Shown: positions 8,479 to 17,646 of the stretch, piece after piece | Layout: every line of letters starts with the position of its first letter | How positions within the stretch are numbered: the first letter of the stretch is position 1 | From: Pigmentibacter sp. JX0631 | GTDB lineage: Bacteria; Bdellovibrionota_B; Oligoflexia; Silvanigrellales; Silvanigrellaceae | Direction of reading: 5' to 3' | Length of the DNA stretch: 64,000 nt | NCBI RefSeq assembly: GCF_029873255.1 | Contig: NZ_CP123622.1 | Coordinates: 1,700,501-1,764,500, forward strand | The notes under the pieces: generated by a model | Databases searched by the model: none | Seen by the model: the letters and a program-made list of their open reading frames with translations, nothing else | Told to the model about the DNA's origin: nothing | Made by a program: the position numbers and the translations under genes

Positions 8479-9381
8479 TTAACTATTTTTGGGTGGGGGT
8501 ATTATATTCCCAAGAATAAGCTCAGAAATTCTTTCTAAATCATCTAGAGTATAATAACTGATTTCAATTTTTCCTTTATTCGTATCTCCTGTAATTTTAA
8601 CTTTTGTACCTAAATGACCCTTATATTGATCGCAGATATATCGAAGATCAGGAGAAATTGAATCTGTAAGAGTTTTGTGTGTTTTATCTAATTTTAAAGA
8701 TTTTATTAATTCTTCAGCCTGTCGAACAGAAAGCTTCTTTTTAACTATAATTGAGTGGGCTTTCAGTTGGAGTTTTTGATTTTCAATTGCGCATAAGGCG
8801 CGTGCATGCCCAGGTGAAATGATTTTTAAATTTAAATCATCTAAAATTTTATCTGGTAAAGACAATAATCTAATTGTGTTTGAAATTGTCGCTCTATTTT
8901 TCCCTATTCTAGAAGCTAATGTTTCTTGTGTATAATTATGTTCTTCTAAAAGCTTTTTATAAGTTTGAGCTTCTTCGACAGCTGATAATGCTTCTCTTTG
9001 AATATTTTCTATCAGTGCTAGTTCTAGGGATGAATGGTCATTTAAATCTCTAACTAAACAGGGAATTTTTTCTAACCCTGCAATTTGAGCGGCTTTCCAC
9101 CGTCTTTCTCCCGCAATAATTTTAATTTTTTCATTTTCATCTAAATAAACTATTACTGGCTGTAATATTCCGTAAGTTCTTATGCTTTGCGCTAATTCAT
9201 CTAAACTTTCAGGATCAAAAAAAGTTCTTGGCTGCTCCTCAAGAGGCTCTATGTTTTTAATTGGTATATATTCAATCACCTGATTTTGATAATAATTTTT
9301 AGATGCTTCATGAAATTTATGATTGAAAGTGACATGTTTGTTTTTGTCTTGTTTCAATAAATCATTATTATTTAGAGGCAT
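8479..9381 (-). CDS. parB: Chromosome partitioning protein ParB
   Basis: ParB/Spo0J-type CTPase that loads at parS and spreads on DNA to organise and segregate the origin region. The 300-residue protein has all three parts. The N-terminal ParB/sulfiredoxin-like CTP-binding domain has QPRTFFDPESLDELAQSI and the GERRWKAA box, then IENIQREALSAVEEA. The HTH region has YTQETLASRIGKNRATISN. The C-terminal dimerisation domain has KGKIEISYYTLDDLERI. Two parS sites lie 0.1 and 1 kb upstream, which supports the call. parA is not adjacent, unlike the common parAB pair. GGAG precedes the ATG. Confidence 0.95.
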   Translation of the reverse strand: MPLNNNDLLKQDKNKHVTFNHKFHEASKNYYQNQVIEYIPIKNIEPLEEQPRTFFDPESLDELAQSIRTYGILQPVIVYLDENEKIKIIAGERRWKAAQIAGLEKIPCLVRDLNDHSSLELALIENIQREALSAVEEAQTYKKLLEEHNYTQETLASRIGKNRATISNTIRLLSLPDKILDDLNLKIISPGHARALCAIENQKLQLKAHSIIVKKKLSVRQAEELIKSLKLDKTHKTLTDSISPDLRYICDQYKGHLGTKVKITGDTNKGKIEISYYTLDDLERISELILGNIIPPPKNS

Positions 9382-10637: not shown

Positions 10638-11465
10638 ATGCAAAAGTCAAAAGTTAAATTAATTAAAGAATTGGTCAATAAACGGCTAGAAGAAGATGTA
10701 AATCATATTCTTAATATTGTAAAAAGTGGTTTTGATGTTCATGTTAAAGTTGAGTCAAAAGAAATTCATGAAATCATTCTTGCAAGTTTAGAAACGGAAC
10801 AAAAAAATCAATTTCTATGTTTTAATATAGTAACAGATCCTCTCCAATTAGATGAAAAATATGAAACTCTCATTAGTAAAAAATCAACTATAATTCCAAC
10901 AGTATTGATTCATCCAGATACAATTAAATATGGTTTAGGTTTTATTCTCTATAAAGTTTCTTCTCCTGAACTTCTTATTTCGTCACCAGCAAATGCTATA
11001 GAAAAAATACTTGAACACTTTTCTCTTGATATTTACATAGATGTTTTTGATAGCGAAATTTTTAGAAAGCTTAAATTAGTAGCAAAATATTTAGGATTAA
11101 ATTGTTTTATTGATGCTGTAGTTCAAACAGCCTATTTAGGTGGCTTTAAAGGTTCTTACTCAAGTGCATCAGAATATCTAGATCACATACTAATTAACTA
11201 TGATGAATTATGTAGCAATATCGATATTTCGCTTGAAAAATGTGCAGAAAATTTATTTTCTTACACACTAATGCAGGGGCAAGATGCTCACGGTTTTATA
11301 AAAGCCGCATTGAGTTTTTATACAGTAAGAAAAAAAGGCTTTACTATGACGAAAGCAAGCCAGTTGCTTCAAATTTCGAGAACAACTTTGCAAGAACATC
11401 TTAAGTTGGCAGAAAAACTTGGGGTATCTAATTTTTTTGAGGGATATAGACAAAAAACACTTTAA
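10638..11465 (+). CDS. Unknown protein with C-terminal Fis-type helix-turn-helix
   Basis: I do not recognise this 275-residue protein. The last 45 residues (TMTKASQLLQISRTTLQEHLKLAEKLGV) have the form of a Fis/HTH_8 helix-turn-helix like that of sigma-54 activators, but no AAA+ domain precedes it. The remainder is a soluble alpha/beta region without signal peptide or membrane segment. The start ATG has AAAGGA nine bases upstream. It sits directly next to parS site 2 and upstream of the ATP synthase operon, separated from it by a terminator. A DNA-binding regulator is plausible from the HTH alone. Confidence 0.55.
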   Translation: MQKSKVKLIKELVNKRLEEDVNHILNIVKSGFDVHVKVESKEIHEIILASLETEQKNQFLCFNIVTDPLQLDEKYETLISKKSTIIPTVLIHPDTIKYGLGFILYKVSSPELLISSPANAIEKILEHFSLDIYIDVFDSEIFRKLKLVAKYLGLNCFIDAVVQTAYLGGFKGSYSSASEYLDHILINYDELCSNIDISLEKCAENLFSYTLMQGQDAHGFIKAALSFYTVRKKGFTMTKASQLLQISRTTLQEHLKLAEKLGVSNFFEGYRQKTL

Positions 11466-11645: not shown

Positions 11646-11665
11646 CATGCCTTGAGGTGGAGTAA

Positions 11666-12673
11666 ATGGCAGGCTCTCTAGATATTTATCCGTTTCATGA
11701 TACAGAAGGTGCCTTAAGATTTGGTATTCAAGTAGGTATTTTCTTAGTAGGAGTGTATATAGCGCAAAAGCTTATAATTCAGCCTGCTGTAAAACTTCAT
11801 AATGAGCGTAGACGGAGAACGGTAGGAGCGACTGAAGCTTCTCGATTAGAAAATGATCGGGCAAGAAAGTTAGAAATGCAGTACCTAGAAGAACTTAAAA
11901 AAGGTGCTGAAGAAGCTAAGCGCTTAAAAGCAGAACAAATTTTTGCTGCTCAAAAAATTGCTACTGAACTAATTACTGAAAATCAAACGAAAGCTGAGAC
12001 TTACTTGGATGATGTTAAAGCTAAGTTGGAAGCTGAAAAAAACAAAGCTAAAAATGATCTTCCAAATCAAGTTAAAGAATTGGTGTCAACTATTTACAAA
12101 AAAATTGGGGTTGCATGTTTAAGTTTTATGCTTGGTTATCAATTATTAAACTCTAATGATGCATTTGCAACCGAGGGAAGCTCTGGAGGAGGCGCTTTCT
12201 GGTATGGTGTATTTTGGCCTTATTTTCAATTTGCTGTCTTTTTGGCTGCAATTATATTTTTTGCAAAAAAGCCAATATCAAACATGTTGGATAAAAACCG
12301 TACAGAATTACGCGCAAAACTTTCTGAAGCAAAAGAAGCTAGTTTATTAGCTGAAAGAAAAGTGAAAGAATATGAAGCTCAAATTGCTTCACTAGAAGAA
12401 GAAATTGCTAAATTAAAAGAGCAAAGTCTTTTTGATGCTAAAATTGAACGTGAAAAGATATTGAACGATGCGGCTAAACTATCTGAATCAATTTTGAAGG
12501 ATGCTCAAAGAGCTGCAAATGAAATGATTACAAGGACAAAGGAAGAAATTAAACACGAGTTGTTTAATTTAGCTTTACATGAAGTTGAAAAATCATTAAC
12601 TGCTGAGCAATTACATTCTTTAGATGCAAAGCTAAAGTCGGAAACAATTGAAGGCATTAGGTCTCTCAATTAA
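11666..12673 (+). CDS. atpF: Fused b'-b peripheral stalk subunit of F1Fo ATP synthase
   Basis: Peripheral stalk (stator) protein linking Fo to F1. The 335-residue frame contains two b-type subunits in a row. Residues 1-145 look like b': a short periplasmic N-terminus, membrane segment 19-37, then a charged coiled coil. Residues 169-335 look like a second b: membrane segment about 184-200 ending AKKPISNMLDKNRTEL, then coiled coil to the C-terminus. Between them, 141-168 read like a signal peptide (YKKIGVACLSFMLGYQLL, then A-F-A at 166-168). There is no stop in the joint. In-frame TTG and GTG codons 139-140 could be old or alternative starts but lack a good ribosome binding site. Cleavage after Ala168 would give separate b' and b chains. 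Confidence 0.85.
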   Translation: MAGSLDIYPFHDTEGALRFGIQVGIFLVGVYIAQKLIIQPAVKLHNERRRRTVGATEASRLENDRARKLEMQYLEELKKGAEEAKRLKAEQIFAAQKIATELITENQTKAETYLDDVKAKLEAEKNKAKNDLPNQVKELVSTIYKKIGVACLSFMLGYQLLNSNDAFATEGSSGGGAFWYGVFWPYFQFAVFLAAIIFFAKKPISNMLDKNRTELRAKLSEAKEASLLAERKVKEYEAQIASLEEEIAKLKEQSLFDAKIEREKILNDAAKLSESILKDAQRAANEMITRTKEEIKHELFNLALHEVEKSLTAEQLHSLDAKLKSETIEGIRSLN

Positions 12674-12715: not shown

Positions 12716-13276
12716 ATGAATAAATTTTCAGGTCCTCTTGCCAGAAGGTATGGGACAGCTCTTTTTGAATGCGCATTAGATGCAGTTAAAAAGGGTATTT
12801 CTTTTAGCGAATTTGTAGACATAACAAGAATTTTGGCGTCATTTTTTACCCGAAAAATGACTGGTTTTTTTGTTAATCCAACTCTTTCTTTGGAAGAAAA
12901 ATTAATTTTATTAGATACAGTATTAGAAAAAATTCTTGGCGGAAGAAATGTTCCTTTAGAATTAAAGGAATTTCTTAAGTTGATGTTAGAAAATCATAGA
13001 TTTTCTGAAATTCAACCTGTTCTTAAAAACTTTCTTTTACGAGCTGATGAACACCTAGGTGTAGCAAGAGCCACAATTTCTTCTGCATCAAAGTTAAGTG
13101 AAAGTGGAGAAACTGAGTTTTCTTCTGTTTTAGAATCTGTTTTAAATAAAAAAATTATTCTTGAATCTAAGGTTGATGAATCCTTACGTTCGGGTTTTGT
13201 TATTAAAGTTGGAAATACAAATGTAGATGCAAGTCTGCGTTCTCGTCTTTTGAATCTTAAAGAGTCTTTGAGTTAG
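12716..13276 (+). CDS. atpH: ATP synthase F1 subunit delta
   Basis: Delta (OSCP) subunit that ties the b stalk to the top of F1. The length of 186 residues is normal for the family. It opens with [17 protein letters not shown], the usual N-terminal helical domain, and ends with the family pattern of [26 protein letters not shown]. It follows the fused b'-b gene and precedes atpA by 11 bases. GGAG lies upstream of the ATG. Unlike mycobacteria, delta is not fused to b here. Confidence 0.93.
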
Positions 13277-13287
13277 GAGTTATATTC

Positions 13288-14797
13288 ATGGAGCATATCC
13301 GGGTTGATGAAATAAGCCAGTTATTAAAACAAAAAATTCAAGCTTTTGGACAAAAGGCGGAAGTATCTGAAACTGGTACGGTTGTATCAATTGCAGATGG
13401 AATGGCACGCATTTATGGTCTAGAAAAAGCTTTAATTAGTGAACTTATTCAATTTGAAAATGGTGTTAAAGGAATCGTCCTTAACTTAGAAGAGGACAAT
13501 GTTGGTGTTGCGGTATTTTCTGGTTCTGAAACCATTCGTGAAGGAATGCAGGTTCGTAGAACTGGAAAAGTAAATAGTATACCAGTGGGATCACAACTTT
13601 TAGGAAGAGTTGTGAATGCTTTAGGTGAACCAATTGATGGATTAGGTGATCTTAATACAGAAGAACATTCTCCAGTTGAAATAAAAGCACCTGGTATTAT
13701 GGCGCGTAAAAGTGTGCATGAACCTCTTCAAACTGGGATTAAGTCAATCGACTCTATGATTCCAATTGGACGTGGGCAACGCGAATTAATTATTGGAGAC
13801 CGTCAAACAGGTAAAACTGCAATTGCAATTGATACTATTATCAACCAAAAAGGTAGTGGTGTGAAATGTATTTATGTTGCAATCGGTCAAAAGTACTCAA
13901 CTATTGCTCAAGTTGTGGAAAAACTCCGCAGAGCTGGAGCGTTAGAATATACAACCATAGTTGTTGCAGGAGCATCTGAAGCGGCAACATTGCAATTTAT
14001 GGCTCCATATACAGGTTGTACTATTGGTGAATATTTTAGAGATCGTGGTGAACATGCGGTCATTTTTTATGATGACTTGACTAAGCATGCACAAGCATAT
14101 CGTGAATTATCTCTTTTATTAAGAAGACCACCAGGTCGCGAAGCATATCCTGGAGACGTTTTTTATTTGCATAGTCGTTTATTGGAAAGAGCTTGTAAAT
14201 TAAGTGATGATCTTGGTGCTGGAAGTTTAACAGCATTCCCAATTATTGAAACACAAGCGAATGATATTTCCGCATACATTCCAACAAACGTTATTTCTAT
14301 TACTGATGGACAAATATTTCTTGAAGCAGATCTATTCAATGCAGGTATGCGTCCAGCCGTAAATGCGGGACTTTCTGTGTCTCGTGTTGGTGGCGCTGCT
14401 CAAACTGGTTCTATGAAACAAGTGGCTGGGAACTTACGTCTTGAATTAGCGCAATATAGAGAACTCGCTGCCTTTGCTCAGTTTGGTTCTGATCTAGACG
14501 CCGCAACACGTAAACAGATTAATCGTGGACAACGTTTAACTGAACTTTTGAAACAGGCTCAGTACTCTCCATTAGCAATGGAAAAGCAAGTACTCACAAT
14601 CTTCGCAGCTATTAATGGTTATTTAGATAATATAGAAGTTCGTTATGTTGGTACTTTTGAGCGCCAAATGCTGAACTATTTTGAAGCTACACATAAAAAT
14701 ATTTTAGATGAAATTGCTACTGGTAAGAAAATGAGTAGTGAATTGCAAACTGAAATTAAAAAAGCTCTTGATGATTTTGCAAAGAGGTTTGAACCAA

Positions 14798-14814
<17 letters not shown>
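13288..14814 (+). CDS. atpA: ATP synthase F1 subunit alpha
   Basis: Regulatory nucleotide-binding subunit of the F1 hexamer. The 508-residue protein is full length, with Walker [12 protein letters not shown] near residue 170, the family signature [35 protein letters not shown] region and the C-terminal helical domain. The ATG has GGAG eight bases before it. Its stop overlaps the start of atpG by 17 bases, so alpha and gamma translation are coupled. Confidence 0.98.
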
Positions 14815-17174
<2,360 letters not shown>

Positions 17175-17199
17175 TTAAAAGACTGGGGATTGTGTATTT

Positions 17200-17646
17200 A
17201 TGGTTGAAGCAAAAGGCAATATGCGAGTTGTTATCTTAACTCCTTATAAACGTCTCCTTGATCTTTCTGGTGTGACCGAGATCTATTTTCCAATCGATCA
17301 TGGAACTATAGGTGTATTGCCTGGACATGCACCAATGGTTTCAGCTGTTGGCACAGGTGTTGTCGTTTATACGCAGAATGAAGTAGCAGGCTTTTATAAA
17401 GTTTCTGGGGGAGTTGCTGAAATATCAGGCTCTTCTGTTACTTTATTAGTTGATGTAGGTGAGGATGCATCTACAATAGATCTTTCTAGAGCAAAGAGTG
17501 CTTTAGAAAGAGCACAAAATCGTCTTGCAGCTAAGGCATCGGATTTAATAGATATGAAAAGAGCTGAAGCTGCACGTGCTCGCGCTTTAGCGAGAATTGA
17601 AGCTGTTGAACTTCATGCTGGGAAGTCCTCAACACAAACAAAATAA
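17200..17646 (+). CDS. atpC: ATP synthase F1 subunit epsilon
   Basis: Rotor subunit that couples gamma to the c ring and can inhibit hydrolysis. It is 148 residues: the N-terminal beta sandwich contains ITEIYFP-like VTEIYFPIDHGTIGVLPGHAPMVSAV, and the C-terminal helical pair is Ala/Arg rich. It is the last gene of the cluster and is followed by a strong terminator. No atpB, atpE or atpI gene lies in the window, so the a and c subunits must be encoded elsewhere. Confidence 0.95.
   Translation: MVEAKGNMRVVILTPYKRLLDLSGVTEIYFPIDHGTIGVLPGHAPMVSAVGTGVVVYTQNEVAGFYKVSGGVAEISGSSVTLLVDVGEDASTIDLSRAKSALERAQNRLAAKASDLIDMKRAEAARARALARIEAVELHAGKSSTQTK

Follow-up and report, generated by a model that had tools for sequence, protein, structure and literature searches.

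Few architectures in biology are more conserved than that of ATP synthase; the b'b form of its peripheral stalk is known as two gene products. In the alphaproteobacteria, cyanobacteria, chloroplasts, and delta/epsilon groups that use this form, the gene for b' precedes that for b, the pair lies next to atpH, and each subunit consists of a single membrane helix at the N-terminus followed by a long stalk helix. The locus described here, from Pigmentibacter sp. JX0631 of the order Silvanigrellales, has the same gene order, the same neighbor, and the same subunit plan, but b' and b occupy one frame, with a signal-peptide-like joint that is found in neither of the separate genes of the class. Fusion of a stalk subunit with another stator subunit in one chain occurs also in the mycobacterial ATP synthase, whose b-delta fusion is, as far as we are aware, stable; the partner there is a different one, however, and no signal peptide separates the parts. 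The fbcH gene of Bradyrhizobium, which encodes cytochrome b and c1 as one precursor that is cleaved at an internal signal peptide, likewise joins two subunits of a bioenergetic membrane complex in one chain, but the complex is another one, and b'-b has to cope with a leftover hydrophobic core that would be attached to a long cytoplasmic stalk. Chloroplast CF0 subunit I is a b-type subunit with a cleavable prepeptide, and a processed N-terminus is also what we predict for the b half of the fusion; that prepeptide, unlike the b'-b joint, forms the very N-terminus of a protein with a gene of its own. Nothing on point was found in the literature searched, either for a b'-b fusion or for ATP synthase in Silvanigrella, and we regard the fusion as a variant of the b'b stalk that is undescribed in that literature and the principle of which has a precedent in fbcH. 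The duplication of b and b' itself has been described as ancient (PMC4154653).

A single unbroken frame at 11666-12673 on the forward strand of the window, i.e., the whole stretch of 64,000 nucleotides analysed, encodes both the b' and the b subunit of F-type ATP synthase, each in full. The frame has the coordinates and the length of 335 codons that had been claimed for it and ends with a TAA stop codon (12671-12673); its ATG is preceded by a strong ribosome-binding site, GAGGTGGAG (11654-11662, forward strand); among the seven distinct genus-level loci, five have it ahead of the ATG. The b' half, residues 1-143 (11666-12094, forward strand), consists of an N-terminal membrane helix at about residues 17-38 and a long stalk helix, as delineated by PF00430, AlphaFold2, and the NCBIfam B' models, which align with residues 25-147. 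The b half, residues 184-335 (12215-12670, forward strand), has a membrane helix beginning with WPYFQF, in which W184, P185, Y186, Q188, and F189 are invariant, followed by its stalk, and aligns with chloroplast b of solved structures (6fkf). With the PF00430 (ATP-synt_B) profile, whose cut-off is 28 bits, the halves score 40.9 and 29.4 bits and the whole protein 58.2. The earlier reading of two b-type subunits in the order b'-b is supported. Their plan of one membrane helix and then a long stalk helix is visible in the hydrophobic N-terminal segments and in an AlphaFold2 prediction made from an alignment of 14 sequences, where b' forms one helix from 13 to 143, the joint at 145-185 is unordered with pLDDT below 50, and the b helix spans 189-310. 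A PF00430 search of the genome revealed no further b or b' gene, the sole matches being the two halves of the fusion, which leaves it as the only possible source of both stalk chains. The fused gene is located in the ATP synthase operon and followed on the same strand by atpH for delta (12716-13276; PF00213) and by atpA, atpG, atpD, and atpC (13288-17646), open reading frames of which gamma was assigned by PF00231 and alpha, beta, and epsilon by recognizable sequence. It is thus confirmed that the gene encodes the b' and b subunits of F-type ATP synthase in one chain. The genes for subunits a and c are on the other strand, at a distance of about 56 kb and outside the window (G000:C1, about 1655250-1656680; loci L090 and L091).

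The surroundings of the operon deserve a brief mention. Directly upstream of b'-b lies a gene (10638-11465, forward strand) whose product has a Fis-type helix-turn-helix end (HTH_8, below the cut-off), and a homolog is also upstream in the genus-level loci L002-L007. The parB gene (8479-9381, reverse strand) is two genes from the operon and is read in the opposite direction; several other members of the class have parB directly upstream of b' and in the same direction as it.

The same open frame was found in all of the 15 Silvanigrellales genomes examined, 14 of the family and one other genome of the order, with carriers that include loci titled Spirobacillus cienkowskii and Fluviispira multicolorata; the fusions represent 14 distinct sequences, and their identity ranges from 92 down to 25%. 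A PF00430 search of 52 genomes of the phylum detected no frames with two PF00430 domains outside Silvanigrellales, and class members that do not belong to the order have two adjacent genes, one for b' and one for b. A fusion that is order-wide, together with separate genes outside the order, speaks for a derived trait and not an error, and, as judged from this distribution, the b'-b fusion is a shared derived trait of the order within the phylum searched. The original prediction had named a missed stop codon or frameshift as what would overturn it; when the relatives within the order were checked, all had an open joint, and the fusion is real. A sequencing or assembly error that deleted a stop codon is ruled out by the joint being open in 15 genomes, both complete and draft, at 25-92% identity. 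A search for relatives on plasmids gave no match. Since the unfused b of the class relatives, in the loci read, starts directly with its membrane helix and has no signal peptide, the signal-peptide-like joint was acquired together with the fusion or just before it.

The end of b', at about residues 143-147, matches the end of unfused b', and nothing in the separate genes of class relatives clearly corresponds to residues 148-183. The joint had been proposed to resemble a complete signal peptide, and the features named are present: K145-K146 and a hydrophobic core at 147-161 constitute a putative n- and h-region (12098-12148, forward strand), and A166-F167-A168 (12161-12169, forward strand) form a predicted signal peptidase I site, with the cut after 12169. 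Comparison of the 14 distinct sequences in an unguided alignment, in which kinship makes the counts not independent, showed that K or R occupies position 146 in 13 of them and that the core drifts in sequence while keeping its hydrophobicity. A strict A-x-A motif exists at 166-168 in 10 of the 14, and the other four have A-L-S, G-Q-A, A-Q-G, and A-F-S, so that small residues suiting the -3 and -1 positions are found in all 14. Conservation is 0.60 at both 166 and 168, which are the top two of columns 148-178, the next column reaching 0.41 and column 167 only 0.04; that the top two of 31 columns are the very pair first named from one sequence would, with conservation scattered at random over the columns, happen once in 465 cases. 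The codons of Ala166 and Ala168 vary synonymously between close relatives. Downstream of the site, residues 169-183 (12170-12214, forward strand) make up a fast-evolving periplasmic loop, with almost no K or R across the 14 sequences, that is predicted to become the new N-terminus of b. Between loci L001 and L002, pN is 0.39 in this loop versus 0.04 in the core, i.e., protein-level change about nine times faster, and pN/pS is 0.54 versus 0.07, values that come from small counts and indicate purifying selection on the core and relaxation in the loop. The A-x-A motif of one genome taken alone was rejected as a discriminator because a crude count in 302 other proteins of this genome found it after 9 of the 76 comparable hydrophobic segments at N-termini and after 8 of the 76 internal ones, figures that do not separate the two classes; the motif is therefore informative through its conservation and not in a single sequence. 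Conserved 166 and 168 with a free 167, synonymous alanine codons, and a relaxed loop together give the pattern of a cleaved signal peptide, and it is strongly supported by these comparisons that the joint acts as an internal Sec signal peptide.

The handling of other subunits of the complex agrees with such a role. In this genome, subunit a has a typical N-terminal signal peptide, MKRKIINILTLFPIVVAQAAYA/ESSG (ending in VVAQAAYA/ESSG), and so does subunit c, MKRKLALISASAATALIVSMPALA/NEAA (ending in VSMPALA/NEAA). A signal peptide is present on c in the loci of the order that were read and on a in most of the loci where a was seen, the a of L094 being without one, and some c subunits in other families of the class also carry it. 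In this lineage, F0 subunits thus appear to pass by way of signal peptidase I, the signal peptide of b lying within a longer chain, and, given the ordinary signal peptides on a and c, this peptidase probably already handles the ATP synthase complex. Three signal peptidase I homologs are encoded in the genome (G000:C1 1071511-1072110, 2420456-2421058, and 3031213-3031785), along with one RseP-like M50 protease. RseP cleaves type II membrane segments once a periplasmic cut has been made and also disposes of leftover signal peptides (PMC10470546, PMC8144685), and its substrates share no common sequence motif (PMC8144685); the predicted topology of the joint, a type II segment, fits such a substrate. 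As a separate observation on subunit c, genome G001 contains a second, shorter c-type frame of 88 amino acids (L106, G001:C76), which may be contamination.

Because the frame has no stop codon at the joint, translation primarily yields the fusion, and its halves can come apart through proteolysis alone. We propose that this product is probably a polyprotein, the precursor of both chains of the heterodimeric b'b peripheral stalk, matured by a signal peptidase I cut after Ala168 and by a second cut. On insertion of the b' part, the N-terminus would come to lie outside and the stalk would remain cytoplasmic, and the joint would then enter the Sec channel as an internal signal peptide, with KK inside, the core across the membrane, and A-F-A outside. 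The short loop would be exported, and the b membrane helix would stop transfer and return the b stalk to the cytoplasm, so that the topology argued originally, with the N-terminus outside, the b' stalk inside, the joint leading out, and the b helix leading in, is supported. Signal peptidase I likely cleaves after Ala168, which would free b with Thr169 as its N-terminus. The second cut, for which an RseP-type site-2 protease is the most plausible enzyme, would remove the leftover signal peptide from the C-terminus of b', and b' could then stand upright beside b. Such a design would yield one b' per b and co-localize their assembly.

The second cut is a reasoned prediction from stalk geometry, and RseP is plausibly, by inference, its protease. 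With about 100 residues beyond the end of the membrane helix near residue 40, at 1.5 Å each, the C-terminus of b', predicted as a straight helix of ~130 residues, would lie some 150 Å from the membrane. An upright b' and a membrane-embedded joint core starting at 147 would consequently be incompatible with the chain either intact or cleaved after Ala168 alone, and a straight b' helix would call for a second cut before or inside the core; otherwise b' would have to be bent, which is suggested neither by the structure prediction nor by its ordinary length. The claim that one cut after Ala168 frees two stalk chains consequently held up only in part: the site has the character expected for signal peptidase I, but b' would retain the signal peptide at its C-terminus and be anchored in the membrane by it.

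The same geometry bears on the two strongest alternatives. One is that the chain stays uncleaved and the joint serves as a permanent third membrane helix of a stator in which b' and b are covalently linked. The topology works for such a stator, and in several sequences the hydrophobicity of the joint core comes close to that of the membrane helices of b' and b. Its b', however, has about the length of unfused b' and is predicted to be a straight helix up to 143 with the core only four residues later, which would put the joint about 150 Å from the membrane, and a plain membrane helix leaves the conserved 166 and 168, the free 167, and the relaxed loop unexplained. This arrangement is disfavoured on these grounds and seems improbable. 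The other is a single signal peptidase I cut, after which b' would keep the signal peptide as a C-terminal anchor, either as a hairpin or by partly following b. All the sequence evidence for the first cut applies to it, and no second protease is required, but AlphaFold2 shows no break in the b' helix, and b' retains the length and the C-terminal pattern of its unfused class relatives; we consider it unlikely.

Separation of b by routes other than proteolysis fares worse. Internal initiation could provide a separate b with a signal peptide alongside the fusion, and TTG139-GTG140 in the window gene and GTG140 in L002 are candidate starts, but a start codon is conserved at no position of the joint, the joint of L003 contains no ATG, GTG, or TTG, Shine-Dalgarno-like sequences before the candidates are sporadic, and the route would not produce free b'. 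The internal start at codons 139-140 was rejected as a mechanism of the family for its lack of conservation, and this reading is very unlikely. An A7 run is situated at the lysine codons of the joint (window 12097-12104). Transcriptional or ribosomal slippage on A7 at codons 145-146, ending b' early in some products, would draw on its presence in five of the seven distinct genus-level sequences, but is scarcely credible, as the run is lost in L007 (AAG AAG) and L008, and no sequence outside the genus has it, the fusion persisting throughout. Neither internal initiation nor slippage would give free b' and free b in all members.

A single gene for b'-b has a 1:1 subunit ratio built in. If the internal signal peptide is real, the fusion would be one of the rare polyproteins of bacteria, placed within a core energy machine and distributed throughout an order; if the chain stays uncut, the geometry of the stalk must be unusual, and both outcomes are informative. 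A further possibility, which we put forward only tentatively, is that the whole order matures its stalk polyprotein by signal peptidase I and then a site-2 protease, which would make intramembrane proteolysis an obligatory step in ATP synthase assembly. The b'-b fusion makes it testable whether a site-2 protease, a type of enzyme known for signaling and clean-up, may be required to assemble a housekeeping complex.
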